Origin: Affinibrenneria salicis
GTDB lineage: Bacteria; Pseudomonadota; Gammaproteobacteria; Enterobacterales; Enterobacteriaceae
DNA: 64,000 nucleotides
Direction: 5' to 3'
NCBI RefSeq assembly: GCF_008710095.1
Contig: NZ_VYKJ01000006.1
Location: forward strand, 62,001 to 126,000
In this document: positions 6,667-64,000 of the stretch, piece by piece
Layout: each line of letters opens with the position of its first letter
How positions within the stretch are numbered: position 1 is the stretch's first letter
Made by a program: the position numbers and the translations under genes
The notes under the pieces: generated by a model
The model's input: only the letters and a program-made list of their open reading frames with translations
The model's database searches: none
What the model was told of the DNA's origin: nothing

Positions 6667-7686
6667 ATGAACAGACCAGGCTGGCAATACCTCGTGCTGG
6701 CGAGCGCACTGACGTTTTTCCCGATCAGTATGGCGCTCGCGGCCGAACGCATCGCATTTATCCCCAAACTGGTGGGCGTCGGTTTCTTTACCAGCGGCGG
6801 CAACGGCGCGCTGGCGGCCGGCAAAGAGCTGGGCATTGATGTGACTTATGACGGCCCGACCGAACCCAGCGTGTCCGGGCAGGTGCAACTTATCAATAAC
6901 TTTGTCAATCAGGGCTACAACGCCATTGTGGTGTCGGCGGTGTCGCCGGACGGCCTGTGTCCGGCCCTGAAGCGCGCGATGCAGCGCGGCGTCAAAGTGC
7001 TGACGTGGGATTCCGACACCAAACCGGAGTGTCGCTCGCTGTATATCAACCAGGGCACGCCGCAGCAGCTCGGTTCGATGCTGATCGAAATGGCGGCCGC
7101 GCAGGTGAAAAAAGACAAGGCAAAGGTCGCCTTTTTCTATTCCAGCCCGACGGTCACCGATCAGAATCAGTGGGTAAAAGAGGCGAAAGCGAAAATCGCC
7201 AGCGAGCACCCCGGCTGGGAAATCGTCGCCACCCAGTTTGGCTATAACGACGCCACTAAATCGCTGCAGACGGCGGAGGGCATTCTGAAGGCCTGGAGCG
7301 ATCTGGACGCGATTATCGCGCCGGACGCCAATGCGCTGCCGGCGGCGGCGCAGGCGGCGGAAAACCTTGGCCGTAGCGATGTGGCGATCGTCGGCTTCAG
7401 CACGCCGAATGTGATGCGGCCCTACGTGACGCGCGGCACGGTGAAGGCGTTCGGTCTGTGGGATGTGGTTCAGCAGGGGCGCATTTCGGTCTATGTCGCG
7501 CATGAAATGCTGAAGAAGGGCGAATTGAAGATCGGCGACAAAGTGGCGATCCCGCAGGCCGGCGAGGTCGAGGTGGTGGCGAACAGCGTACAGGGCTACC
7601 AGTACGAGGCGGCGAATAACGGCATCGTTCTGCTGCCGCAACGGGTGGTATTCAGCAAAGACAACATCGATCAATACGATTTTTAG
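6667..7686 (+). CDS. lsrB: LsrB, periplasmic AI-2 binding protein
   Basis: Periplasmic receptor that captures AI-2 and delivers it to LsrACD. The N-terminus has a typical signal peptide ending near ISMALA before [10 protein letters not shown]. The mature protein shows the family features [51 protein letters not shown] and [15 protein letters not shown]. At 339 residues it is full length. The ligand-binding segments look intact, so AI-2 recognition is likely conserved. Confidence 0.95.
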
Positions 7687-7763
7687 CCATGTCCGGCCGG
7701 CGCGCATGCCCGGCCGACCCTGACAATAGCCCGCGTCGGGCGGGCAAACGGGAGGTGATTAGA

Positions 7764-8639
7764 ATGGCCGATCTGGATGATATTCGCGATGGTAAAAACT
7801 TTGGCATTGGGGTGGCGCAGGAAAATCAACGCTTCTTTTTGAAGGGCAGCGGAGCGCTGGACTGGGGCATGCAGTCGCGTCTGGCGCGGATTTTTAATCC
7901 CGACTCGGGGCGCACCGTCATGCTGGCCTTCGATCATGGTTATTTCCAGGGACCGACGACCGGGCTGGAGCGCATCGATCTGCACATCGCGCCGCTCTTT
8001 CCGCATACCGATGTGCTGATGTGTACGCGCGGCATTTTACGCAGCGTCGTCAGCCCGGCGGTGAATAAACCGGTGGTGCTGCGCGCCTCCGGCGCGAATT
8101 CCATATTGCGGGAACTATCCAACGAGGCGGTGGCGGTCGCGATTGAAGACGCCCTGCGCCTGAATGTAGCCGCGATGGCGGCGCAGGTCTACATCGGCAG
8201 CGAATATGAACATCAGTCGATAAAAAACATTATCCAGCTGGTGGACCAGGGCGCGCGCTACGGCATGCCGACCATGGCCGTAACCGGCGTGGGCAAGGAC
8301 ATGGCGCGCGATCAGCGCTATTTCTCATTGGCGACGCGCATCGCGGCGGAAATGGGGGCGCAGATCATTAAAACCTACTACGTGGACAGCGGATTCGAAC
8401 GCGTGACGGCCGGCTGCCCGGTACCGATCGTGATTGCCGGCGGCAAAAAACTGCCGGAGCGCGAGGCGCTGGACATGTGCTATCGGGCGATCGACCAGGG
8501 CGCCTCCGGCGTGGACATGGGGCGCAATATATTCCAGTCAGAAGCGCCGGTCGCCATGCTGAAAGCGGTGCAGGCCGTGGTGCATCAGGGGGAAAGCGTG
8601 GAGCAGGCCTGGCAGCGCTATCTGCACGAAAAAGGCTGA
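7764..8639 (+). CDS. lsrF: LsrF, phospho-AI-2 thiolase/aldolase
   Basis: Class-I-aldolase-fold enzyme that transfers an acetyl group from the LsrG product (P-HPD) to CoA, ending AI-2 catabolism. The ATG at 7764, with strong ribosome-binding site GGAGGTG at 7751-7757, gives 291 residues, the E. coli length. An in-frame upstream start at 7689 would add 25 unrelated residues and is rejected. The catalytic lysine is in AQIIKTYYV (Lys203). Conserved blocks [20 protein letters not shown] and [11 protein letters not shown] are present. Confidence 0.95.
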
Positions 8640-8673
8640 TCGCGCCGCAGGTTAACCGTCGGGAGAAAACGTT

Positions 8674-8964
8674 ATGCATGTGACACTGGTGGAAATTAAC
8701 GTCAGGGACGACAAGATTGATGAGTTTATTCGGGTGTTCCGGGATAACCATCTGGGCGCTATTCAGGAGCCGGGCAATTTGCGTTTTGACGTGCTGCAGG
8801 ATGAGCGCATCCCCAGCCGTTTTTATATTTATGAGGCTTATCGCGACGAACAGGCGGTAGCGGCCCATAAGCGGACGCCGCACTATCTGCGCTGCGTGCA
8901 GCGGCTTGAAGCGCTAATGAGCGAGCCGCGAAAAAAAACGACGTTTATCGGCCTGATGCCCTGA
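8674..8964 (+). CDS. lsrG: LsrG, phospho-AI-2 isomerase
   Basis: Small ABM-domain enzyme (96 residues, family length) that isomerises phospho-AI-2 to the LsrF substrate. The sequence starts [19 protein letters not shown] and contains [20 protein letters not shown] and the [10 protein letters not shown] block with conserved histidines. GGGAG precedes the ATG by about 8 nt. Last gene of the lsr operon, followed by a repeat element and a bidirectional terminator. Confidence 0.94.
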
Positions 8965-9002
8965 GACGGGCGAGTCGGGCGGAGACGCGGCAAGCGCTCA
9001 TA

Positions 9003-9258
9003 TATACCCAAAATAATTCGAGTTGCAGAGGGCGCGATACAGCGACAAATTCGTCGGCAACGAATTTATCCAGCCAACGGCTACCTTCGGCGAGAGGCGG
9101 AATGTCTCTCATTATTCCCGGGAGCATATTGCCGTAGGTTCCTGGGGTGAGCGGCAAGTCTGCCGGCCGTGGAGTTGAACTCTGCTGGCGGCCCTGCAAG
9201 GGCGAGCCCTGTGGATGGGGCGAGTAACAAATACAACGCGCCTGCAATTTGAGGTATG
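9003..9258. repeat. palindromic repeat element R1 (lsrG-dolP intergenic)
   Basis: A 256-bp element with imperfect inverted ends: ATACCCaaaataattcgaG TTGCAG on the left, and CTGCAATTTGAGGTAT on the right, which is the reverse complement of the same type of end. The interior is GC-rich and non-coding. It belongs to a family also seen at 10561-10839, 22831-22960, 32044-32099, 44042-44240 and 49657-49844. It fills most of the 383-bp gap between convergent genes, and I see no gene inside it. Confidence 0.7.
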
Positions 9259-9268
9259 AAGGGGACAG

Positions 9269-9298
9269 AACATAACCCTGCGAGGGCAGGGTTATGTT
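9269..9298. terminator. bidirectional terminator hairpin between lsrG and dolP
   Basis: A perfect 13-bp stem (AACATAACCCTGC with its complement) and a 4-nt GAGG loop lie between convergent lsrG and dolP. A-rich and T-rich ends flank it, but there is no long U-tract. Position and symmetry support a shared terminator. Confidence 0.65.
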
Positions 9299-9347
9299 CA
9301 GAGGTTAGCGTTGATCCGCGGCGTTCGTTGTGCCGGGAGGCGGGGCT

Positions 9348-9923
9348 TTAGTCCAGCCAGGTAAAGGCGGTGGTAACGTGTTTCACGCCGCTAATTTTGC
9401 TGGCGATCTCCGCGGCTGAACTGCCTTCGCGCCGGGTCACCAGACCCAGCAGGAATACTTCGCCGTTTTCCGTGGTGACTTTAACGTTGGACGACTTCAC
9501 GCTGTCGCTGGCCAGGATCTGCGAGCGAACTTTGGTGGTGATCCAGGTATCCATTGAGGCGGTACCCAGCGAGACCGGCGTGCCCTGGCGGATTTCGTTG
9601 TAGACTTCGCTGGCGCCGTCCACGCCCAGTGCGATCTGTTTCGCCCGGTTCGACAATTCGCTATTGGGCGCCTGGCCGGTGAGCAATACTTTTCCCTGAT
9701 AGGCCGTCGCGATAACGCGCGCGTCTTTCTTCAGCTGTTCGTCTTTGTTCAGCGCGCTGGTGACGCGCATTTCCAGCGTGCCGTCATCCACCTGGGTGCC
9801 TACCGTACGCGGGTCCGTTGCGGTTTTGGTGGCGACCGCGGCGCTGCCGACCACCACTGCGCCGACGCAACCTTGCAACAGCAGGGCGATAGACAGCACG
9901 GCAAATACAGATCCTATCCTCAT
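9348..9923 (-). CDS. dolP: DolP (YraP), dual-BON-domain outer-membrane lipoprotein
   Basis: Outer-membrane lipoprotein important for envelope integrity. The ATG at 9923, preceded by AAGGAG, gives 191 residues, the E. coli length. A lipobox (LLLQGC, Cys19) follows a short signal peptide. Two BON domains follow: roughly residues 45-115 (VTSALNKDEQLKKDARVIAT, GKVLLTGQAP) and 120-190 (ITTKVRSQILASDSVKSSNV, GEVFLLGLVTRREG). Last gene of the leftward lpoA-yraN-diaA-dolP set, with a 10-bp gap to diaA. Confidence 0.94.
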   Translation of the reverse strand: MRIGSVFAVLSIALLLQGCVGAVVVGSAAVATKTATDPRTVGTQVDDGTLEMRVTSALNKDEQLKKDARVIATAYQGKVLLTGQAPNSELSNRAKQIALGVDGASEVYNEIRQGTPVSLGTASMDTWITTKVRSQILASDSVKSSNVKVTTENGEVFLLGLVTRREGSSAAEIASKISGVKHVTTAFTWLD

Positions 9924-9933
9924 GTAGTGCTCC

Positions 9934-10524
9934 TTAATCGTTCTGGTGTGGAAAAAGAGTGTTATCAATCAGGTCGCACAGGCAATTCACCGTCAGCATA
10001 TGCACTTCCTGAATACGGGCGCTGCGGTGCGAAGGGATGCGGATTTCCACATCCTGCGGCCCCAACAGCCCGGCCAGTTCGCCGCCATCATAACCGGTGA
10101 GGGCCACGATGCTCATATCACGGGTCACCGCCGCCTCAACCGCTTTCACGATATCACGGCTGTTGCCGCGGGTGGAGATCGCCAGCAGCACATCGCCGGT
10201 CTGCCCCAGCGCCCGTACCTGCTTGGCGTAAATTTCATCCGGCAGGCGATCGTTGCTAATCGCAGTTAAGACCACGTTATCGGCACTAAGTGCGATCGCC
10301 GGCAGACTGGGGCGCTCAGTTTCAAAGCGGTTGATCATGCTGGCGGAGAAATGCTGGGCGTTGGCCGCCGATGTACCGTTCCCGCAGCACAAAATTTTAT
10401 TGCCGTTCAGTAATGATTGCACCATAACGATAGCGGCGCGTGAGATCGCATCGGGTAAGGCTTCGGCCGCCGCGATCTGGGTTTGAATACTTTCGGTAAA
10501 ACAGACTTTTATTCTATCCAGCAC
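9934..10524 (-). CDS. diaA: DiaA, DnaA initiator-associating SIS-domain protein
   Basis: SIS-fold protein that forms tetramers bridging DnaA molecules at oriC to promote timely initiation. 196 residues, the E. coli length. The phosphosugar-isomerase-like core is visible in [40 protein letters not shown] and [16 protein letters not shown]. The tail is [17 protein letters not shown]. It sits 10 bp upstream of dolP and is separated from yraN by repeat R2, so it may need its own promoter. Confidence 0.94.
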
Positions 10525-10560
10525 GTTGGGTTAACCCGTTTGTTAATATCCATGAATAAG

Positions 10561-10839
10561 GTATACCCGCCATCCTTCAGGCTGCGGGTACGTTGGCTGC
10601 GCTCACTTATTCGGCCCATCTCCGGAGCCTTGCCCCTGCGGGGCCGCGGCCAGCGGCGTTCAAACCCGCTCCCGGCGGATTTGTCACCCGAATCGCATAC
10701 TGGTGTATGCACATCGGGATGAACGCGCCTCATTGCTGAAGCGGGTCGCCAGGGGCGGCGCTGGCGCTGTTCGAATCGGTTCCAGACCGATTTATCCCTC
10801 GCCGGACGCCTTGTCGCAACCTGAAATCCTCGGGTATCG
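10561..10839. repeat. palindromic repeat element R2 (diaA-yraN intergenic)
   Basis: 279-bp element. The left end is GTATACCCgccatcCTTCAG GCTGCGGG and the right end is CGCAACCTGAAATCCTCGGGTATC, its imperfect reverse complement. Next to the left end is the family signature CGTTGGCTGCGCTCA. The interior is GC-rich with no convincing gene. It abuts the yraN stop codon (10840) and interrupts an otherwise tight gene cluster. Confidence 0.72.
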
Positions 10840-11259
10840 TCAGCCCTGTGCGTTGAACGCATCCGGTAGCCATGACAACTGATCCCCGGTTATCGCCAGC
10901 ACGTCGAAACGGCAGTCGGCCGTGGCGAAACTTTCGCCCCGTCGCATCAGCCAGACTGCCGCCGCGTGCAATAATCTGAGTTGTTTCCGGCGGGTGATGC
11001 TGGACGCCGCATCGCCAAAACGGTCGCTGCGGCGGTAACGAACTTCAACAAACACCCAGGTCGGTCCATCGCGCATAATCAGATCCAGTTCGCCGCCGCG
11101 CAGGCTGACGTTGGCCGCCACGAAGGTCAGCCCGGCCCGCTCCAGATAGCGCCGGGCCTGCTGCTCGTAGCCCGCGCCGGCGGCTCGCCGGTTCAGGATG
11201 CCGGCACCACCTGTCCCTGGCGGTACTGCAGCCAGGACAGCTTGCGGCCGATCACGCAA
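10840..11259 (-). CDS. yraN: YraN, UPF0102 endonuclease-fold protein
   Basis: Small protein of unknown cellular role with the restriction-endonuclease-like fold of the UPF0102 family. The conserved core is [20 protein letters not shown] and [10 protein letters not shown], where the E-D-ExR pattern is the likely metal site. CRFDVLAIT and a WLPDAFNA tail follow. 139 residues against 131 in E. coli; the extra residues are at an N-terminus that overlaps the lpoA 3' end by 67 bp in another frame. A shorter start cannot be excluded. Confidence 0.88.
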
Positions 11260-13217
11260 TCCTGATTGGCGCTCAGCGTACCGGTGGCGCCATCGACCTG
11301 GTGATCGGGAAGCTGGCGCATTTCAGCAAAGTGGCTGGCCAGTGTCCAGGCGTCCATCCCCATCGCATACAGGCGTACCAGCGAGTAGTCGTTCTTAAAC
11401 TGACTGCTGACCTGCTGCATTAGCGCCGGGTTCGCGCCGGCCAGCAGCGGAATATCGCTGAACTGCAGCCCTTCCATTTCCAGCCGGAAATCCGGTCCCA
11501 ACCCCGACTGGAAGCTGCGCGAACCGGCGTACAGCGCCGGACGGCTGCGCGAGGAGGTGCGCATATCGATCATCGGCTTGATGAGCGCCAGCTCATCCGG
11601 CGTGGCGATGATATATACCGCATCCACATTACCGCTGACCGACGCGGCGGCGCTGGGTTCAACCTGCGCCGGGATGGTCAAACCGGCGACGGTTACGCTG
11701 TTTTGCGCCGGCTGAGCCGGGGCCGGGTTCACCAGTTGGCCGCTCAGGCTCAGTCCGGCGCCGCTGTTGATGGCCTGTTTCAACTCCGCCGCCGAGCCAA
11801 AGCGCTGTTGCAGCAGCGTGCCGCCGCCCTGCCGCCGCCAGGCGTCGGCGAAGGCGTTAATCACCCGATCGCCCAGCGCGCCGCGCGGCACCAGCAGCAG
11901 CGGCTGCTGTTTCGATTGCTGATGGATATGCGCCGCCGCATCGCGGGCTTCATCTTCCGGCGACAGCGCAAAGTAACAGATATTCGGGCTGCTCTGAATA
12001 TGTTCCGGTTGATTCAGGGCCAGAACGTTAATCGGGGTCTGGCTGTTGGCAATCTGCTCCACTTCATTTTTCAGCAGCGGACCGACGATCAGCGAAGCGC
12101 CGTCCTGTTGCACCTGATTCAACAGGGCGGGCAGCGGCTGCGTGGTGGTATCGTACACTTTTACCGGCAGAGAGGCCGGCAGACCGGGCGCTGACGCCGG
12201 GACGGGCGCAACCGAGGCGCTGTATTCCGCCGGCGCAGGTTCCGCGCCGCCGGCGGTCGCCGCATCCGCTGACGAGGCGACCGCGACGGGAGCGGACGCC
12301 GGTGTTGCCGTCGTCGCGGGTGCGGCGGGTATCGACGGCGTGTTCAGCGTGGCCTGACCGTTTTTCGCCGCGTTGAATCCCTGTTGAATCGCGTTGGCGA
12401 ACACCTGGGCCTGGCCGTTTAGCGGCAATAGCAGGGCGATGCTGTTGACGGCGGTCTGGCGAAAATTAATCACCTGATCCAACTGGGTGGGCAGCTGAGT
12501 CGACGCCGGATGGTGCGGGTAGCGGACTTTCCAGTCTTCGATAGCGGCCTTCAACTGATCGGGCGACTGCCGATTATTTTGCCAGGTGGTGAGCAGGTCG
12601 AGCCAGCCGCGCAGCGTGTTTTCGCTGGCGTCGATCACCAGCGAGGAAAGGTCCTGCGCGGAAAGGCTGTTGAGCGTCTGCCAGGTGAGATCGAGATTCT
12701 TTTGCCGGGCATCCCCCTGCAGCAGCGTTTCCTGAGCGATCATGGCGCGCACCAGCGTCAGGGACGGACGCCCCTGACTGGCGTTGATCAGCGTCTGGTA
12801 ATAGCGTTGTTTCTGCGGGTCGGAAAGCGTATTGACATCCAACGATCCCAGCGCGGCGATCGCGGCCTGGGTATGATTCTGCGCCGCCAGCAGTTCCGCG
12901 TTCAGCAATTGCCGTTCAAGGCGCTGAGCGTCGTTCAGTTCGGCCGGCAGAGTATTCAACTGTTGCGCCGCCTGCGGCAGCTTTCCTTCCTGCAGGAAGG
13001 CACGAACGGCAAGTAATTGCCAGTCAGCCTTGTTATTATCACTGCTTTGCTGCATTTGTTGCAGATAATAGGCGGAAGAGCCAGCGGCCTGGCCCTGCAC
13101 ATCGGCGGGCGGCGGGCTTTGCGGCGCATGGCCCGGACAGCCAGTGAGAAGCAGCGCCGCCAGTACGACAGGCATGGCGCGTCCTGCCTGGGTACGGATA
13201 AAATTAAAGGAAAGCAT
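11193..13217 (-). CDS. lpoA: LpoA, outer-membrane activator of PBP1A
   Basis: Outer-membrane lipoprotein that reaches through the periplasm to stimulate the transpeptidase activity of penicillin-binding protein 1A. The ATG at 13217 gives 674 residues (about 678 in E. coli) with lipobox LLLTGC (Cys27). The N-terminal helical TPR-like half runs to about residue 255. An Ala/Pro-rich low-complexity linker follows (about 300-360, rich in [15 protein letters not shown] runs). The C-terminal half is a periplasmic-binding-protein-like domain ([19 protein letters not shown]). An upstream in-frame start at 13337 is rejected because it would bury the lipoprotein signal. Confidence 0.94.
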
Positions 13218-13279
13218 ACTGTGTCCAGTGATATTTTTTTCAAGATGCTCAATATTAAATCGGCAACCCGGATGAAACA

Positions 13280-14161
13280 ATGAATCAAAACCAACAAGCA
13301 GATATTTCTGCGCCCAGCCTTTACATTGTGCCCACACCGATCGGCAATCTTGGCGACATCACCGGGCGGGCGCTGGAGGTGCTGCAACACGTTGATCTTA
13401 TTGCCGCAGAGGATACCCGTCATACCGGTCTGCTGTTACAACATTTTGCCATCAATGCGCGGTTGTTCGCATTACACGATCATAATGAGCAACAAAAAGC
13501 AGAACAACTGCTGGCGAAACTGCAGGCCGGGCAGAGCATTGCGCTGGTGTCGGACGCCGGCACGCCGTTAATCAACGATCCCGGCTATCACCTGGTCAGA
13601 CTCTGCCGCGAGGCGGGGGTGCGCGTGGTGCCGCTGCCGGGCGCCTGTGCGGCGATTACCGCGCTGTGCGCCGCCGGTCTGCCGTCCGATCGTTTCTGTT
13701 ATGAGGGCTTTCTGCCGGCGAAACGCAAGGGGCGACGGGATACGCTGCGCGCGCTGCGCGAAGAGCCGCGCACGCTGATTTTTTACGAATCCACCCACCG
13801 CCTGCTGGAAAGCCTGCAGGATATGGCGGACGAACTGGGGCCGCAGCGCTATGTAGTGCTGGCGCGCGAGCTGACTAAAACCTGGGAGAACATTCAGGGC
13901 GCGCCGGTCGGCGAATTGCTGGCGTGGGTGCTGGAGGACGAGAACCGGCGCAAAGGCGAAATGGTGTTGATTGTGGAAGGCCACCAGGCGAGCGAGGACG
14001 AATTGCCGGCCGAGGCGCTGCGCACGCTGGCCCTGCTGCAGCGCGAGTTGCCGCTGAAAAAAGCGGCGGCGCTGGCGGCGGAGATCCACGGCGTGAAGAA
14101 AAACGCGCTGTACCGCCACGCGCTTGATAACCAGACGCAAGAGAATGCAGCTCAGGGGTGA
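13280..14161 (+). CDS. rsmI: RsmI, 16S rRNA 2'-O-ribose C1402 methyltransferase
   Basis: SAM-dependent tetrapyrrole-methylase-fold enzyme that 2'-O-methylates C1402 in the ribosomal decoding centre. 293 residues. Motifs: [19 protein letters not shown] near the N-terminus, [30 protein letters not shown] and [12 protein letters not shown], all typical of the family. Divergent from lpoA with only 62 bp between the starts. The stop codon overlaps the -35 box of the rnpB promoter. Confidence 0.95.
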
Positions 14162-14186
14162 CATTCCGGCTATTTTGCCCTATTAT
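14158..14186 (+). promoter_or_regulatory. sigma70 promoter of rnpB
   Basis: GTGACA (-35, 14158-14163), a 17-bp spacer and TATTAT (-10, 14181-14186) lie 7 bp before the predicted first base of RNase P RNA. The -35 box overlaps the rsmI stop codon. Confidence 0.8.
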
Positions 14187-14193
14187 CCGCGCC

Positions 14194-14569
<376 letters not shown>

Positions 14570-14578
14570 TATTGATTG

Positions 14579-58567: not shown

Positions 58568-59104
58568 ATGCCCACTATCGTTACTCATGCCGCGGTGCCG
58601 CTTTGTCTGGGCTTAGGGCTGGGCCGTAAGGCGATTCCGCCGCGCCTGCTGCTGGCCGGCATCGCTTTTTCCATGTTGCCGGATGTGGACGTGTTGTCCT
58701 TTAAGCTCGGTGTGAATTACGGCAATATTTTAGGCCATCGCGGTTTTACCCACTCACTGCTGTTTGCCGTCGCGTTGCCCACGCTGGCGCTGCTCTGTCA
58801 TCGTTTCTTTCGCACCGGGCTGCTGCGTATCTGGTGTTTTCTGACCGTGTCGTTGCTTTCGCACAGCCTGCTGGATTCGATCACGACCGGCGGCCGCGGC
58901 GTCGCCTGGCTGTGGCCGTGGGAAAACACCCGCTTCTTTGCGCCGTGGCAGGTGATTAAGGTGGCGCCCTTCAGCCTCGCGCGCTACGACACGCCCTATG
59001 GGCATGCGGTTATTGCGTCGGAATTGCTGTGGGTATGGCTGCCGGGACTGGTGCTGGTATTGCTATTGCGCTGGCTGCGCGAGAAAGGGATGCTCAACGT
59101 CTGA
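58568..59104 (+). CDS. YdjM/DUF457-type inner-membrane metal-dependent hydrolase
   Basis: Integral membrane protein of 178 residues in the YdjM/YbcI family, annotated elsewhere as metal-dependent hydrolase. It opens TIVTHAAVPLCLGLGLG and has the family histidines and aspartates in SMLPDVDVLSF, GHRGFTHSLLFAVALP and LLSHSLLDSITTGGRG, which resemble metal ligands. Several hydrophobic helices span it. In E. coli YdjM is LexA-regulated; here the visible site is a CRP palindrome. Substrate unknown. Confidence 0.85.
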   Translation: MPTIVTHAAVPLCLGLGLGRKAIPPRLLLAGIAFSMLPDVDVLSFKLGVNYGNILGHRGFTHSLLFAVALPTLALLCHRFFRTGLLRIWCFLTVSLLSHSLLDSITTGGRGVAWLWPWENTRFFAPWQVIKVAPFSLARYDTPYGHAVIASELLWVWLPGLVLVLLLRWLREKGMLNV

Positions 59105-59129
59105 CGGCGCGGCGCGCCGTCTCCGGTTA

Positions 59130-60656
59130 TCAACTTTTGCCCATAAATTCGCGCAGCCGCCGCCAGTGCGGCGTGTCCTGCGGCGCGTTCAGCAACGACG
59201 CCGGCGGCGCGTCCGCGATAATACGGCCGTTTTCCATCATCACAATACGGTCGGAAATCGACAGCGCGAAGTCCATTTCGTGGGTGACGATCAGCATGGT
59301 CATACCTTCGCGCGCCAGATCCTGAATCACTTTCAGCACCTCTTCCACCAGCTCCGGATCCAGCGCCGAGGTCGGTTCATCAAACAGCATAATCTCCGGC
59401 CGCAGCGCCAGCGCGCGAGCAATCGCCACCCGCTGCTGCTGACCGCCGGACAGCTGGTGAGGATATTTGCCGGCGTGCGCCAGCAGCCCCACGCGGTCGA
59501 GCAGCGTCAGCGCCTGCTGACGGTTGTTTGCCGCTTCGGCGGGCCGGCGGTGGTAAGCCGGCGCCAGCATGACGTTTTGCAGTACGGTCAGATGCGGAAA
59601 CAGATTGAAATTCTGGAATACCATGCCGATGCGCTGGATGCCCTCGCGCAGCCGCCGCCGATCCTGGGCCGCCTCCGCGCGAATATAGCTTTCGCCGTCC
59701 AGAATAATTTCGCCGTCGTTAATGGCCTCCAGTCCGTTGATGGTGCGGATGAGCGTCGTTTTGCCCGATCCCGACGGGCCGATCAGGCTGATCACCTCGC
59801 CGGCGCGCACCTGCAGCGAGACGCCCTTCAGGATCTGATGCTCGCCATAGGATTTATGCACGTTCATTAACTGCAGAACCGGCGGCGTGCCGGCACCGCG
59901 TTGCGGCGCGGGACTCAGCGGCGCGGCGATCAACGTCGCGCGCAGCCGGCGACAGGCCGCCTCGTCCAGTCCCTCGGGCTTGCGCGCGGGAATATCCAGC
60001 CGGTATTCCAGATAGCGAAACAGCCAGCCAAACAGCGTCACGATCAGCACATAATAGACCGCCACCGCCAGCAGGGTTTCCAGCACCAGAAAGTTCTGGG
60101 CATACAGCCGCTGCCCGGTGAGCAACAATTCCGGCAGTGAAATCACCGACACCAGCGAGCTGAGCTTAATCACGGTCACGTACTCGTTAATCAGCGTGGG
60201 CAGCGCGATGCGCAGCGCCTGCGGGATGACGATTAAGCGCTGGATGGCGAAAAAACCGATGCTCAGGGCGTAGCCCGCCTCGCGCTGTCCTTTGGCGACC
60301 GACAGCAGACCGCCGCGATGAATTTCCGCCATGTAGGCGGCTTCGGTCACCACCAGTCCGACAAGGCCGGCGATAAAGGGAATGCCGAGAAGCGGGCCGG
60401 TCAGCGGGAACAGCTGCGGCAGGTTATAGACAAACACCAGCAGCACCAGCAGCGGCACGCTGCGGAAAAACCAGATATACAGCGCGGCCGGATAACGCGC
60501 CCAGCGGGAAGCGGACAGTCGGGCGCAGGCGAGGATAAACCCCAGCACCAGACCGATGCCCCAGCCCAGCGTGCTCAGGATGACCACCGTCAGACTGGCG
60601 CGCCAGAAAGCCCCGAGGGTAAAAAGTGAAAAAAAATAGTCCCAGTCCAGATTCAT
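59130..60656 (-). CDS. fused amino-acid-type ABC permease and ATPase
   Basis: Single-chain importer of 508 residues. Residues about 1-222 are a HisMQ/GlnP-type permease with the EAA loop EIHRGGLLSVAKGQREAGYA (about 111-130). A linker of some 35 residues follows, then an ABC ATPase (about 259-508) with Walker A GPSGSGKT (293-300), Q-loop Gln348, LSGGQ (402-406) and Walker B LFDEP (424-428). In most organisms these are two proteins. It is downstream of its binding-protein gene. The frame is continuous with no sign of a sequencing frameshift. Confidence 0.9.
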   Translation of the reverse strand: MNLDWDYFFSLFTLGAFWRASLTVVILSTLGWGIGLVLGFILACARLSASRWARYPAALYIWFFRSVPLLVLLVFVYNLPQLFPLTGPLLGIPFIAGLVGLVVTEAAYMAEIHRGGLLSVAKGQREAGYALSIGFFAIQRLIVIPQALRIALPTLINEYVTVIKLSSLVSVISLPELLLTGQRLYAQNFLVLETLLAVAVYYVLIVTLFGWLFRYLEYRLDIPARKPEGLDEAACRRLRATLIAAPLSPAPQRGAGTPPVLQLMNVHKSYGEHQILKGVSLQVRAGEVISLIGPSGSGKTTLIRTINGLEAINDGEIILDGESYIRAEAAQDRRRLREGIQRIGMVFQNFNLFPHLTVLQNVMLAPAYHRRPAEAANNRQQALTLLDRVGLLAHAGKYPHQLSGGQQQRVAIARALALRPEIMLFDEPTSALDPELVEEVLKVIQDLAREGMTMLIVTHEMDFALSISDRIVMMENGRIIADAPPASLLNAPQDTPHWRRLREFMGKS

Positions 60657-60710
60657 GCCGACCTCATCTTGCAGCGACGGATGGCCGGACTGCGCCGGCC
60701 ACGGGGAAGA

Positions 60711-61529
60711 TTACTCGGCGGGCACCGGCTCAAGCTGATATTTTTCCAGCAGCGCCTGGTACTGCCCGTTGGCGCGCAGCGTCGTCATGGCCTGTTTGAT
60801 CGCCGAGAGCAGTTGATCGTTGCCTTTCTTCACGTAGATGCCCAGCGTTTGCGGATAGATCAGCGTGCTGGACGTCACGATGATGCGCCCTTTGGTGCGT
60901 TGCGCGAACATGTGCGCGGCGCCGGCGATTTCCATCTGCACCTGTACGTTTTTCGACATCAGCGCCTGCGAGACTTCCGGCGCGCTCGGGAATTCCTGTA
61001 CGACGATCGGCGCTTTACCGGCCGGCCGGCAATCTGTATCGGACAGCGTTTTCAGCATGCCGACCCAGACCGTCCCCTGCTGCAGTCCCACTTTTAAGCC
61101 GCACAGATCCTGCTCCGTTTGCGGTTTAACCGGACTGTCCTGGGTCACCATAATGGCGGCGCCGGTGCGGGCGTAAGGAATGGCGTCCGCCTGCTTTTGC
61201 CGTTCGGGGGTGATGTACATACCGGAAATCACGGCATCGAACTTACCGGCGCTCAGACCGAGGATCAGACCGGTGAAGCGGGTATCAATAAACACCGCTT
61301 TGGCCTGCATCTGTTCGGCCAGCAGGTGCGAGAATTCCGGGTCGGAACCGACCACCTTATCGCCGTCATAGGATTCGAACGGCGGATAGCTGATCTCCAT
61401 CCCCACTTTAAACTGGCCCGGGGTGAGCAACTGGGCGGCGGCGGGCAGAGACAGGGCGCCCGCCATCAGCGACAGCGCCGCGCCGAGACAGCGACGGCGC
61501 AGGCGGGGAGAAAACGTGTTGATCGACAT
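60711..61529 (-). CDS. periplasmic amino-acid-type solute-binding protein
   Basis: Family 3 (SBP_bac_3) receptor for the fused importer, 272 residues. The signal peptide ends near SLPAAAQLLTPGQFKVGMEI. The family pattern is clear: ISYPPFESYDGDKVVGSDPE, FDAVISGMYITPERQKQADA, GLKVGLQQGTVW. It may bind an amino acid, opine or guanidino compound; the arginine/lysine-type groups share this pattern. Lies 54 bp before the fused permease-ATPase, in the same operon. Confidence 0.88.
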   Translation of the reverse strand: MSINTFSPRLRRRCLGAALSLMAGALSLPAAAQLLTPGQFKVGMEISYPPFESYDGDKVVGSDPEFSHLLAEQMQAKAVFIDTRFTGLILGLSAGKFDAVISGMYITPERQKQADAIPYARTGAAIMVTQDSPVKPQTEQDLCGLKVGLQQGTVWVGMLKTLSDTDCRPAGKAPIVVQEFPSAPEVSQALMSKNVQVQMEIAGAAHMFAQRTKGRIIVTSSTLIYPQTLGIYVKKGNDQLLSAIKQAMTTLRANGQYQALLEKYQLEPVPAE

Positions 61530-61577
61530 GGTATGCTCCTGGTCATGGGTGAAAAATTAATCAGCATTGCAGACCAT

Positions 61578-61638
61578 TGACAACGCGCCGCGTCGCGGCA
61601 TGCGCTCGTGCAGCGCAGCCCTGCCGGCGACGTTGTCA
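61578..61638 (-). other. 61-nt imperfect hairpin between oxygenase and binding protein
   Basis: TGACAACG (61578-61585) and CGTTGTCA (61631-61638) form 8-bp outer arms, with further GC pairing (GCCG/CGGC) inside. No U-tract follows. It may set a stability boundary between catabolic and transport genes. Confidence 0.35.
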
Positions 61639-61644
61639 GCAATC

Positions 61645-62700
61645 TCAGCGTTTTTGTTTTTTGAAATGGCCGAAACTGGCGACGCCGCGGGCGTGCTGCG
61701 GCAGATGCAGTTCGCCGGCGGCGACCCGTTCGCGCAGATAGCGGTAGGTTTGCAGCGCCTGGCTGTACATATGTTCGCCGATGGTCAGCGCCTGATAGTT
61801 CTGACCGCCGTCCGCCTGCTGAAATTGCGGCAGCGGTTTGATCTGCGTGTGGTAGTCGCAGGCATAGAACAGCGGGAAGGAGTAACGCTCCTGGCTTACT
61901 TTACGCACGCGATGCGCGGTGGCGACAAAGGCGCCGGCGCTCATGACCTCCAGCATGTCGCCGATGTTGACCACAAACGCTTCTTCGCCCTGTTCGATTT
62001 TGGGCGGCGCATCGATCCAGTCGCCGTTTTCGTTCATCACTTCCAGTCCTTCCCGATCGGCCAGCAGCAGCGTGAAGCACTCGTAATCGGTGTGCGCGCC
62101 GATGCCGGGCGCGTCCTGCGCTTCGGCGTCGAACGGATAGTGGATCATGCGCAGTTTGGACGGCGGGCAGGTGACCATGCCGTCGAAATGGCCTTCATCC
62201 AGCCCGAGCGCCAGCGCGAAGGCGCCGAACAGTCGGCGGCCGAGCGCGAAAACGGCGTCGTAATAGGCCAGTACGGCGGCGCGGAAGCCCGGCAGTTCGG
62301 GCCACTCGTTGGCGCCGATGAGCGGCGTACCGGCCAGCACCAGCGGGTGATCGGCGGGCGCCTGAAAACCGATATCGAACGCTTCTTTATGGTCGGGTTT
62401 GCCGCTGCCGTAAATCTCTTCGCCTTCCGGCACGTAGCCTTTGTGGCTGCGTGAAGCGCCGATGTAGTAACGCATTTTTTCTTCCATCGGCAGCGCGAAC
62501 AGAGCCTTGGCCGCCTGACGCAGGCCGTCGATCAGCGCCGGGGTAACGCCGTGGCCGGTAATGTAGAAAAAACCGACTTCGCGCGCGGCCTGGCCGAGCT
62601 TTTGCGCCACCGCGCCGCGCCGGGCGGCATCGGCGCAAAACAGATCGGCGATATCAATGACCGGCAGGGCGGTGAACGGAACGGACGGTGTTGCGGGCAT
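61645..62700 (-). CDS. 2-oxoglutarate/Fe(II)-dependent oxygenase, isopenicillin-N-synthase family
   Basis: Non-haem iron oxygenase of 351 residues. The N-terminal DIOX_N domain has PVIDIADLF and [12 protein letters not shown]. The jelly-roll core supplies the facial triad His203 and Asp205 ([13 protein letters not shown]) and His263 (TAHRVRKV), plus the 2-oxoglutarate-binding Arg272-x-Ser274 (QERYSFPLF). Family enzymes hydroxylate, cyclise or desaturate small molecules; the substrate here is unknown. It lies 12 bp after a TIM-barrel gene and is in one operon with ureohydrolase and transporter genes. Confidence 0.88.
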
Positions 62701-62712
62701 AGGGCGTCTCCA

Positions 62713-63570
62713 TCAGGTCGGTACGGGTGAATGCTGCAGCCAGCGCTCGAAATGCTGACGTTCGCAGCGGGCCATCCAGTCGTTCAGCGACCAGAGATCG
62801 GTCACCGGAACGTCGGTAAACGGTAAGTGATGCAGATAGCCGTCCGGGCCAAATTCCGGCGTCAGCGTGGCGACGGGATATCCCTGATTTCGTTGCGCAT
62901 GCCAGACGGCCTGCCAGAACGCCTGGTGGAACGCCAGCTCCGCGCTGTATTCCGGCGCGGCCGGATGCGGCACCTGCGGGCCCTGGGCGTAGCCCACTCT
63001 GGCCTGAATGTGGTGCACCCGATCGATAAACGGCTGAAAGTCGTCCAGCGGATGATCGGGCAGTCGTTCCGCGACCACCACCCAGTGGCTGATGTCCGCG
63101 GTAAAACGCAGTTCGGGCACCTGACGAATCAGTTCCAGCGTGAGCCACGGACTGTAGAGCGAGGTGGCGCGATGGGTTTCAAAGCTGCAGACGACGGCCG
63201 CCGCATCCGCCAGCGCCAGCGCCCGGCCGAAAAAATCCACCTGTTGCGCCAGCGGCCAGCGGTCATTGCCCGCCAGAACGTTGATAAAGCGCGGCGCCAG
63301 CGCATCGGCGGCCTCCAGCATGCGCGCCAGATGGTCAAGGTGCTGCTCCGGCGTGTCCTGCTGGCGCGGCACTACATCGCCGCCGCTGAAGACGATGCCG
63401 ATATACGCCAGCCCTTCCTCGTTCAGGCGCGCGCGCAGTTGCTGGCGCTGGCCGCGCGTCGGCGGCAGGCGAGCCTCGATGCCGACGCATCCCGCCTCGC
63501 GCAGTTGCCGGACGCAGGTCGGCCAGTCGGTCGTCGCGCCCCACAGCGAACGAAAAATATCGAGCCGCAT
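62713..63570 (-). CDS. sugar-phosphate isomerase/epimerase-like TIM-barrel protein
   Basis: AP-endonuclease-2/xylose-isomerase-like TIM barrel of 285 residues; the ATG at 63570 has GAGGAG upstream, and the longer frame from 63699 is rejected. Predicted metal ligands fall in the segments VGIEARLPPT, CSFETHRATSLYSPW, RFTADISHWVVV, VHHIQARVGY and LTPEFGPDGYLH. Members isomerise or epimerise sugars or cleave C-C bonds, and specificity is not evident. It is co-transcribed with the oxygenase (12 bp) and ureohydrolase (14 bp). Confidence 0.85.
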   Translation of the reverse strand: MRLDIFRSLWGATTDWPTCVRQLREAGCVGIEARLPPTRGQRQQLRARLNEEGLAYIGIVFSGGDVVPRQQDTPEQHLDHLARMLEAADALAPRFINVLAGNDRWPLAQQVDFFGRALALADAAAVVCSFETHRATSLYSPWLTLELIRQVPELRFTADISHWVVVAERLPDHPLDDFQPFIDRVHHIQARVGYAQGPQVPHPAAPEYSAELAFHQAFWQAVWHAQRNQGYPVATLTPEFGPDGYLHHLPFTDVPVTDLWSLNDWMARCERQHFERWLQHSPVPT

Positions 63571-63584
63571 CGTCGTTCTCCTCT

Positions 63585-64000
63585 TCAGCGGTGCGCGACG
63601 CCCGGCAGGACGCACAGCATTTCGTACAGCAGATTGGCGGCCAGTTGGGCCGTGTTGCCGCTGACGTCGTAAGGCGGCGAAACTTCCACCAGATCGCAAC
63701 CGATCAGGTTAAGCCCGCGGCAGCCGCGCACAATCTCCAGCCCCTGAATCGACGTCAGACCGCCGACCTCCGGCGTGCCGGTGCCGGGCGCCCAGACCGG
63801 GTCCAGACTATCGATATCGAAAGAGAGGTAGACCGGGCCGGCGCCGATGCGCTCGCGCACCTGCGCCATCAGCGGGCTGAGCGACTGATGCCAGCAGGCT
63901 TCGGCCGGCACCAGATGAAAGCCCTGATCCACGCCCCACTGAAAATCCTGCGCGGTGTAGCCCTGGGCGCGCTGGCCGATCTGCACCACTCGCCGGCAGT
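63585..64000 (-). CDS. ureohydrolase (arginase/agmatinase family), N-terminus beyond window
   Basis: Binuclear Mn (or Ni) hydrolase cleaving guanidino groups. Only the last 138 or so codons are present; the frame is open to the window edge. The diagnostic third ureohydrolase signature SFDIDSLDPVWAPGTGTPE, with GG after it, is present, as is VVQIGQRAQGY upstream and DLVEVSPPYDVSGNTAQLAA downstream. It could be agmatinase, guanidinobutyrase, guanidine hydrolase or similar. It heads or is near the start of the leftward catabolic operon. Confidence 0.88.
   Translation of the reverse strand, partial: CRRVVQIGQRAQGYTAQDFQWGVDQGFHLVPAEACWHQSLSPLMAQVRERIGAGPVYLSFDIDSLDPVWAPGTGTPEVGGLTSIQGLEIVRGCRGLNLIGCDLVEVSPPYDVSGNTAQLAANLLYEMLCVLPGVAHR

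Follow-up and report, generated by a model that had tools for sequence, protein, structure and literature searches.

A candidate guanidino-acid operon of Affinibrenneria salicis that joins an MgdH-related oxygenase to a guanidinobutyrase-type hydrolase

GbuA of Pseudomonas aeruginosa is a guanidinobutyrase that comes with a LysR regulator, GbuR, and decarboxylation of 2-ketoarginine is a route towards 4-guanidinobutyrate. Methylguanidine is handled by another system: MgdH hydroxylates it and MgdL breaks the stable N-(hydroxymethyl)guanidine, as described in the accessible part of PMC12508155, which names halophilic genera for this system. Here we describe a related locus in a 64-kb stretch of DNA from Affinibrenneria salicis (the window, that is, the whole stretch analyzed). 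Five minus-strand open reading frames (ORFs), confirmed near its right edge, encode in order a hydrolase, a TIM barrel, a 2-oxoglutarate (2OG)/Fe(II) oxygenase, a binding protein and a fused permease-ATPase.

Comparison of related loci shows this gene block to be real and widespread, and it very probably handles a guanidino acid. More tentatively, we favor the view that the operon would scavenge nitrogen from an N-substituted omega-guanidino acid, by way of hydroxylation, release through the TIM barrel, and formation of gamma-aminobutyrate (GABA) and urea by GbuA. A preliminary description of the locus had proposed that a guanidino compound is imported, oxidized and hydrolyzed. This proposal is partly supported: its outline holds, with a substrate that we infer, and the type of hydrolase, the kin of the oxygenase and the ligand are corrected below. 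The preliminary description also did not know the gene combination as a pathway, and no description of it was found in the literature searched, which mostly excluded subscription papers.

The oxygenase clade and its TIM-barrel partner

Relatives of the oxygenase were collected from genome contigs, and because the best 80 of 530 were kept, close relatives and Pseudomonas weigh more heavily in the neighborhood counts. With five records from a plasmid collection and the window they make up 86 sources. L081, whose oxygenase is truncated, was excluded from the tree and the residue counts, so that the tree has 87 rows: 85 sources and two distant outgroup rows. Neighbors were tabulated by tblastn with 23 reference proteins and set distances, a procedure that misses genes outside the reference set, and some loci stop at contig edges. 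The window oxygenase falls into a clade of 70 rows (support 100/100), separate from the rows with the published mgdH gene order; we call it clade A. Within this clade, the window row and rows from Klebsiella, Raoultella and Acinetobacter form a group of six (99/87). The root of the tree is unsure because the outgroup branches are very long. Genome loci are available for 67 of the 70 clade-A sources, and whole-genome searches covered 50 of these genomes for Gd-I riboswitches, 20 for Gd-II and Gd-III and 34 for copies of GbuA. The 15 rows outside clade A are about 45-58% identical to the window oxygenase. L081 lies outside the main clade, with 57% identity over the partial oxygenase gene and a neighborhood of the clade-A kind.

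Two Halomonas loci, L080 and L085, tie the window oxygenase (58% and 57% identical to their proteins) to MgdH. Both carry a Gd-I riboswitch, a binding protein, two ATP-binding cassette (ABC)-type ORFs, cgdA, cgdB, a Gd-II riboswitch, gca, the oxygenase, a small protein and atzF, an order that matches the methylguanidine demethylation operon of Vreelandella boliviensis as given in the accessible part of PMC12508155. Read by hand against primers in the same part of that source, the first six residues of the L080 small protein are those that the mgdL primer encodes, and the start of the L080 oxygenase nearly agrees with the mgdH primer. The assignment of the window protein to the 2OG/Fe(II) family stands, and its nearest studied enzyme is MgdH, which the preliminary description had not named. 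The triad H203/D205/H263, previously read as intact, is invariant in a 19-sequence alignment alongside R272 and S274 of the RxS motif, and the structure model has a predicted local distance difference test (pLDDT) value of 87.6. Its nearest solved structures are 9ovh, a reconstructed ancestor of the ethylene-forming enzyme (EFE), and 6jyv, a P. aeruginosa entry without assigned function. No match to gca, cgdA, cgdB, atzF or either of two MgdL-type references was found anywhere in the window.

The most constant neighbor of the oxygenase is the TIM barrel, which lies within 4.5 kb in 70/70 clade-A sources, mostly directly upstream; an association of this constancy exceeds chance. Across the 86 sources, 76 have the TIM barrel, eight have an MgdL-type gene, none has both and two have neither. 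Since the two occur in a mutually exclusive fashion, the TIM barrel may take the place of MgdL. It has a xylose-isomerase-like fold with E-D-H-E residues, which, by analogy, presumably bind a metal, so it is probably a metal-dependent enzyme. A sequence search yielded no solved relative at E 0.001, and relatives are annotated only as sugar phosphate isomerase/epimerase or hypothetical. NCBIfam gave no name for the window oxygenase, the window TIM barrel or a Paraburkholderia TIM barrel. Guanidine-carboxylase clusters (L003, L075, L076, L078 and L082) likewise contain the TIM-oxygenase pair. In two Sphingomonadales loci (L066 and L070) the pair accounts for all nearby reference matches, and in L090 the 600 bases upstream of the TIM barrel gave no match.

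The next-closest proteins to those of the window are at best 78% (oxygenase) and 70% (TIM barrel) identical, and the oxygenase cluster of Klebsiella pneumoniae (P0007) has 4921 member sequences. An Acidobacteriota locus (L077, 9906-11802) carries an MgdH-type oxygenase and a following small gene, which served as the second MgdL-type reference. On an Acinetobacter plasmid (L004, 6082-13085), ABC genes accompany a distant oxygenase (45%), a weak MgdL-type match (28%), an SMR transporter and an allophanate hydrolase; a guanidine riboswitch at gathering score was not found in this record. L079 (about 8900-11011) has tandem oxygenase matches, 53% and 56% identical to the window protein, and two NMT1-type binding-protein matches upstream.

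Hydrolase, importer and gene neighborhood

Among the ureohydrolases compared, the window hydrolase is closest in sequence to guanidinobutyrase (GbuA). Against solved structures its fragment scores 242 bits with guanidinobutyrase 3nio (over residues 183-319), 133 with guanidinopropionase, 104 with the best agmatinase and 55 with 7esr, an entry titled 'probable agmatinase 2' that we take to be the cyanobacterial guanidinase GdmH. A full-length Marinomonas relative gives the same ranking (551, 311, 199 and 151 bits); a further score in that comparison is 220 bits. The fragment, 85% identical to a Klebsiella relative (alignment A6), comprises 137 codons and alone reaches 94 bits with the agmatinase equivalog TIGR01230 (cut-off 174.3); the full-length Klebsiella protein stays below the cut-off of PRK02190 (290 against 302). 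Met161, which we take to be the guanidinobutyrase specificity residue, has a Met at the equivalent place in full-length relatives (M158 of L007, alignment A6), a site that lies outside the window fragment. The arginase family noted previously thus holds, sharpened to a guanidinobutyrase as nearest type. A guanidinase was rejected, 7esr scoring far below 3nio in both comparisons, and an agmatinase is disfavored by the same scores, although a full-length relative passes the broad TIGR01230. Among individual loci, the guanidinobutyrase frame of a K. pneumoniae record (L001, 7110-8033) stops early near the C-terminus compared with L007; the record is labelled a plasmid although it measures 5.37 Mb, and oqxAB is located within a few kb of the operon. 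A Hydrogenophaga locus (L062, about 7000-9000) has tandem ureohydrolase matches of 79% and 45%.

The binding protein suggests what kind of ligand is taken up. We aligned 53 binding proteins with ArgT and HisJ of Escherichia coli and found E45 in 52/53 and Y48, F85 and R110 in 53/53. We assume that E45/Y48/F85 are counterparts of the ArgT cation box and R110 of its carboxylate arginine, and that Asp161 of ArgT holds the alpha-ammonium group of the ligand. The Asp161 position is V, L, M or I in 53/53, including the window protein, and Ser70 and Ser72 of ArgT are replaced by Gly and Tyr. Loss of the alpha-ammonium Asp with retention of the guanidino box and the carboxylate Arg suggests, as far as sequence can tell, that the ligand is a guanidino acid without a free alpha-amino group. 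The importer class for amino acids named earlier is retained; an ordinary amino acid is perhaps not the ligand, as the ArgT/HisJ-type Asp is absent. Matches over at least 60% of the fused permease-ATPase lie near 54/70 clade-A sources and the binding protein near 55/70; Acetobacteraceae loci have another importer type, often with a TonB-dependent receptor.

GbuA is near 19 of the 70 clade-A sources. Both importer genes, for the binding protein and for the fused permease-ATPase, accompany it in 18 of these 19, in several orders; the nineteenth has the binding protein and another permease match. Most Pseudomonas loci have no GbuA in the block. A gene of the DDAH/ADI family is near 10/70 and occupies the GbuA slot in L052, L091 and L092 (L093 is the same genome as L052). 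In the 70 sources the two genes are never both near the oxygenase, and L026 and L036 have the DDAH/ADI gene further out. In 34 clade-A genomes that have no GbuA locally, GbuA was sought elsewhere: 20 carry a copy of at least 75% identity, 11 gave no match at E 1e-60, and in the other three no copy exceeds 49%. All 11 DDAH/ADI genomes searched are without a close GbuA (ten without a match, one with 45%). Because Acetobacteraceae dominate this set of genomes, the pattern represents few independent events, and a GbuA may simply be the rule in Pseudomonas. Among 295 genomes of the order of K. pneumoniae, five have the oxygenase and five a close GbuA, a single genome having both; of the remaining four genomes with the oxygenase, three carry the DDAH/ADI gene in the slot and the fourth is that of L090. 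In L061, a DDAH/ADI gene lies about 7.5 kb before the oxygenase; it does not keep the C-terminal family part, and its frame is perhaps disturbed.

In Klebsiella, Marinomonas and other relatives, a LysR gene is divergent to GbuA. The Klebsiella and Marinomonas proteins are 48-55% identical to the LysR beside stand-alone gbuA. We inspected five of 20 known stand-alone gbuA stretches (L094-L098); all five have a LysR 73-89% identical to that of L027/L033, and four also an NCS1 transporter. Given this identity the regulator looks GbuR-like, and a GbuR-type LysR probably controls the operon in relatives, judging by sequence. The gene downstream in L027 scores 841 bits (cut-off 500) with a 5-guanidino-2-oxopentanoate decarboxylase model. 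L028, L033, L034 and L041 have downstream homologues of 75-90% identity on the same strand, at 3.6-6.9 kb from the start of the oxygenase; L035 has one of 62% identity on the opposite strand. In L027 and L028 the decarboxylase-type gene is followed by one for an aldehyde dehydrogenase.

In the window itself (Table 1), the ORF listing agrees with the earlier account of five leftward genes with gaps of 14, 12, 115 and 54 bp, the 14-bp gap following from an ATG start of the TIM barrel at 63570, and Pfam matches agree with the five families it had named. The window edge cuts the hydrolase, of which only the C-terminal ~43% lies inside, so that the operon start is not readable and co-transcription is presumed from the layout. 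Downstream of the operon is a convergent ORF (58568-59104, plus strand), with the palindrome between the two. An RNase P RNA of class A at 14194-14570 (plus strand) is the sole Rfam match of the window at gathering score, and ARAGORN found no tRNA in the 64 kb.

Table 1. Features of the operon at the right edge of the window
Feature	Position	Strand	Evidence
GbuA-like ureohydrolase, C-terminal 137 codons	63585..63998	-	PF00491 (Arginase) 1.8e-39; open at window edge
Xylose-isomerase-like TIM barrel	62713..63570	-	Pfam AP_endonuc_2 4.4e-14
2OG/Fe(II) oxygenase	61645..62700	-	DIOX_N 4.1e-32 and 2OG-FeII_Oxy 1.3e-19
Family 3 periplasmic binding protein	60711..61529	-	SBP_bac_3 (PF00497) 5.9e-32
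Fused permease-ATPase, polar amino acid type ABC importer, 508 aa	59130..60656	-	PF00528 (BPD_transp_1) 1.4e-15 and PF00005 (ABC_tran) 1.7e-35
GC-rich palindrome, possible hairpin without T run	59103..59121		Direct reading; absent from pattern-scan list

Weighing the proposed pathway

In the pathway that we tentatively favor, the binding protein and the fused permease-ATPase, whose families are established, would import an omega-guanidino acid that bears a substituent on a guanidino nitrogen, methyl being the simplest case. The MgdH-type oxygenase would then use 2OG and O2 to hydroxylate the carbon on that nitrogen, a step suggested by kinship to MgdH and by the conserved catalytic residues. 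In the stead of MgdL, the TIM barrel might split the resulting hemiaminal and free the group as an aldehyde (formaldehyde if methyl), as the mutual exclusion of the two partners would suggest. The hydrolase, of GbuA type by family, would finally cut the freed 4-guanidinobutyrate into GABA and urea. This acid could be reached directly or, in the decarboxylase-bearing Pseudomonas versions, through 2-ketoarginine. A locus outside the clade offers a parallel: L073 has a Gd-I riboswitch and, beyond its oxygenase and an MgdL-type gene, encodes further along the same strand a ureohydrolase that scores 534 bits with 7esr. There the hydrolase fits guanidine, the expected product of the oxygenase; by the same reasoning, a guanidinobutyrase points to 4-guanidinobutyrate as the product in clade A. 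The Gd-I loci L073 (Jiella, 8633-14540) and L074 (Roseibium, 8604-13898) both combine an MgdH-type oxygenase with a farther ureohydrolase, a pairing not encountered in the accessible part of PMC12508155. Annotated neighbors include no genes for formaldehyde disposal, for which no dedicated search was made.

We regard a more specific version as possible at best, namely that the pathway strips N-methyl or N-carboxymethyl groups from guanidino acids derived from modified arginine, the TIM barrel being a second, unrelated, metal-dependent hemiaminal lyase that feeds a guanidinobutyrase. Read in this way, the pathway would span plant-, sea- and gut-associated bacteria. No text joining guanidinobutyrate, N-methyl and methylarginine with bacterial catabolism was found in the literature searched, and the titles listed for dimethylguanidino valeric acid together with bacteria deal with humans, mice and diet. 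Were the pathway confirmed, guanidine chemistry reported in 2025 would extend from free methylguanidine to guanidino acids, and a large oxygenase clade and a TIM-barrel family would gain a function. It would also give bacteria a route to nitrogen from breakdown products of modified arginine, and would add a second answer to a rare chemical problem, how to break a stable hemiaminal.

Several observations weigh against nitrogen recovery from an N-substituted acid. A class II aldolase is near 24/70 clade-A sources and a GhrA-like reductase near 19/70, which a methyl group does not explain; some of these matches are weak (for example, 25% in L010) or on the other strand. Their presence suggests that the released group may exceed methyl (for example, carboxymethyl, yielding glyoxylate) or that the route concerns the carbon skeleton. 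Replacement of GbuA by a deiminase-type DDAH/ADI enzyme would not yield GABA, and the genomes of L063, L066 and L069 showed neither a close GbuA nor a DDAH/ADI gene (in that of L066 no GbuA match was found at E 1e-60). GbuA without the oxygenase is common, as four of the five close-GbuA genomes of the K. pneumoniae order lack the oxygenase. The full-length Klebsiella hydrolase passes TIGR01230 with 195 bits. In the binding proteins, an alignment gap lies two residues before the lost Asp161 site, and the adjoining Glu200, conserved in 52/53 as in ArgT, could stand in for the Asp. Outside Halomonas the matches of MgdL type are weak (28-47%), and Paraburkholderia accounts for all five outside loci with the TIM barrel, so that the proposed replacement of MgdL rests on few independent events. 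Finally, fixed sites of the oxygenase set clade A apart from the 13 nearer outside rows: K182 (70/70, against Q in 13/13), I307 (70/70, against A in 13/13) and D215 (66/70, against T in 13/13). The attacked position may therefore have moved. Gln is also found at position 182 in both more distant outside rows. K182 opens a modelled strand (182-188) whose third residue, R184, is aligned with Arg181 of the Anc357 structure; the EFE counterpart of Arg181 is Arg171 (comparison drawn from the accessible part of PMC12329707). A Lys at this place could hold a carboxylate.

An alternative that we consider unlikely is hydroxylation of the chain carbon beside the guanidino nitrogen, in 4-guanidinobutyrate, 2-ketoarginine or a relative of arginine, which would yield free guanidine and a semialdehyde, with GbuA acting in parallel. 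Such chemistry is known from EFE and from the plant homoarginine-6-hydroxylases 2-ODD-C23 (PMC11018352, accessible part), and the acidic residues E95, D103, E106, D109 and E207 do not vary across clade A or across the 13 nearer outside rows. A Gd-I riboswitch is also present somewhere in 30/50 clade-A genomes. At the operon, however, the guanidine riboswitch that the preliminary description had suggested looking for is missing: none reached the gathering score in the window or in 15 further clade-A sources (L001, L002, L007-L010, L012, L013, L033, L037, L049, L052, L057, L061 and L062), nor in L081 outside the clade, whereas 11/15 outside loci have one (L003, L073-L078, L080, L082, L084 and L085; that of L077 is marginal, a Gd-II match of 32.3 bits against a cut-off of 32 that overlaps the region upstream). 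Genes of the guanidine carboxylase pathway are near 10/15 outside loci and 0/70 clade-A sources. The 20 clade-A genomes without Gd-I include four with Gd-II and none with Gd-III, which leaves 16/50 in which none of the three was detected, Gd-IV not being part of the search and weak ones possibly escaping the filters. This distribution speaks against free guanidine as an obligate product, and two enzymes for one substrate would be wasteful within one operon.

We give similarly little credence to a carbon-skeleton route, in which a chain carbon away from the nitrogen would be hydroxylated, the TIM barrel would isomerize the product, the aldolase and reductase of relatives would process it, and GbuA would only recover nitrogen. 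The aldolase and reductase matches, which accompany both GbuA and DDAH/ADI versions, agree with such a route, as does a TIM fold common to sugar epimerases, isomerases and lyases. They do not extend to the guanidine-carboxylase clusters, where the five TIM-oxygenase pairs have no aldolase or reductase match, or to the window, where neither gene was matched over the whole length.

That clade A is another methylguanidine demethylase in an unusual neighborhood is improbable: the identity to the Halomonas rows and the largely common invariant residues would fit, but the importer is of SBP_bac_3 rather than NMT1 type, GbuA stands in place of the guanidine carboxylase pathway, the riboswitch is missing and the Gln-to-Lys difference at 182 is fixed. 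A chance neighborhood is scarcely credible, for although the block is modular, with the hydrolase in 19/70 only and another importer in Acetobacteraceae, the linkage of GbuA to importer genes recurs in several orders.

Comparison with described systems

The scavenging operon that we favor shares features with several known systems. With the plant enzymes 2-ODD-C23 it has in common 2OG oxygenases acting on guanidino compounds; the plant enzymes release guanidine, unlike the outcome proposed for the window enzyme (PMC11018352, accessible part). GdmH operons resemble it in joining a ureohydrolase to an ABC importer for nitrogen, as far as the accessible part of PMC12186494 describes them, but the window hydrolase scores 55 bits with 7esr against 242 with guanidinobutyrase, and the window has no Gd-I riboswitch. 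The Lys/Arg/Orn importer with ArgT shares the binding-protein family, the cation box and the carboxylate arginine; on the window side the counterpart of Asp161 is lost, and permease and ATPase are fused.

Closest in its hydrolase is the GbuA/GbuR system of P. aeruginosa, to which the locus is linked by the hydrolase family, by the divergent LysR of relatives and by a 2-ketoarginine-decarboxylase-type gene downstream in five relatives. Compared with stand-alone gbuA, the GbuA of the window is joined to an oxygenase, a TIM barrel and an importer (three genes not sought around L094-L098). Closest in its oxygenase is the MgdH/MgdL system, which, like the window locus, combines an oxygenase of this family with a partner protein, a step of nitrogen release and an ABC importer. 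The window oxygenase differs from MgdH in K182 in place of Gln, and its operon in the guanidine riboswitch, none being found. Measured against the accessible part of PMC12508155, the window has a TIM barrel for MgdL, GbuA for the guanidine carboxylase pathway, and a family 3 importer.

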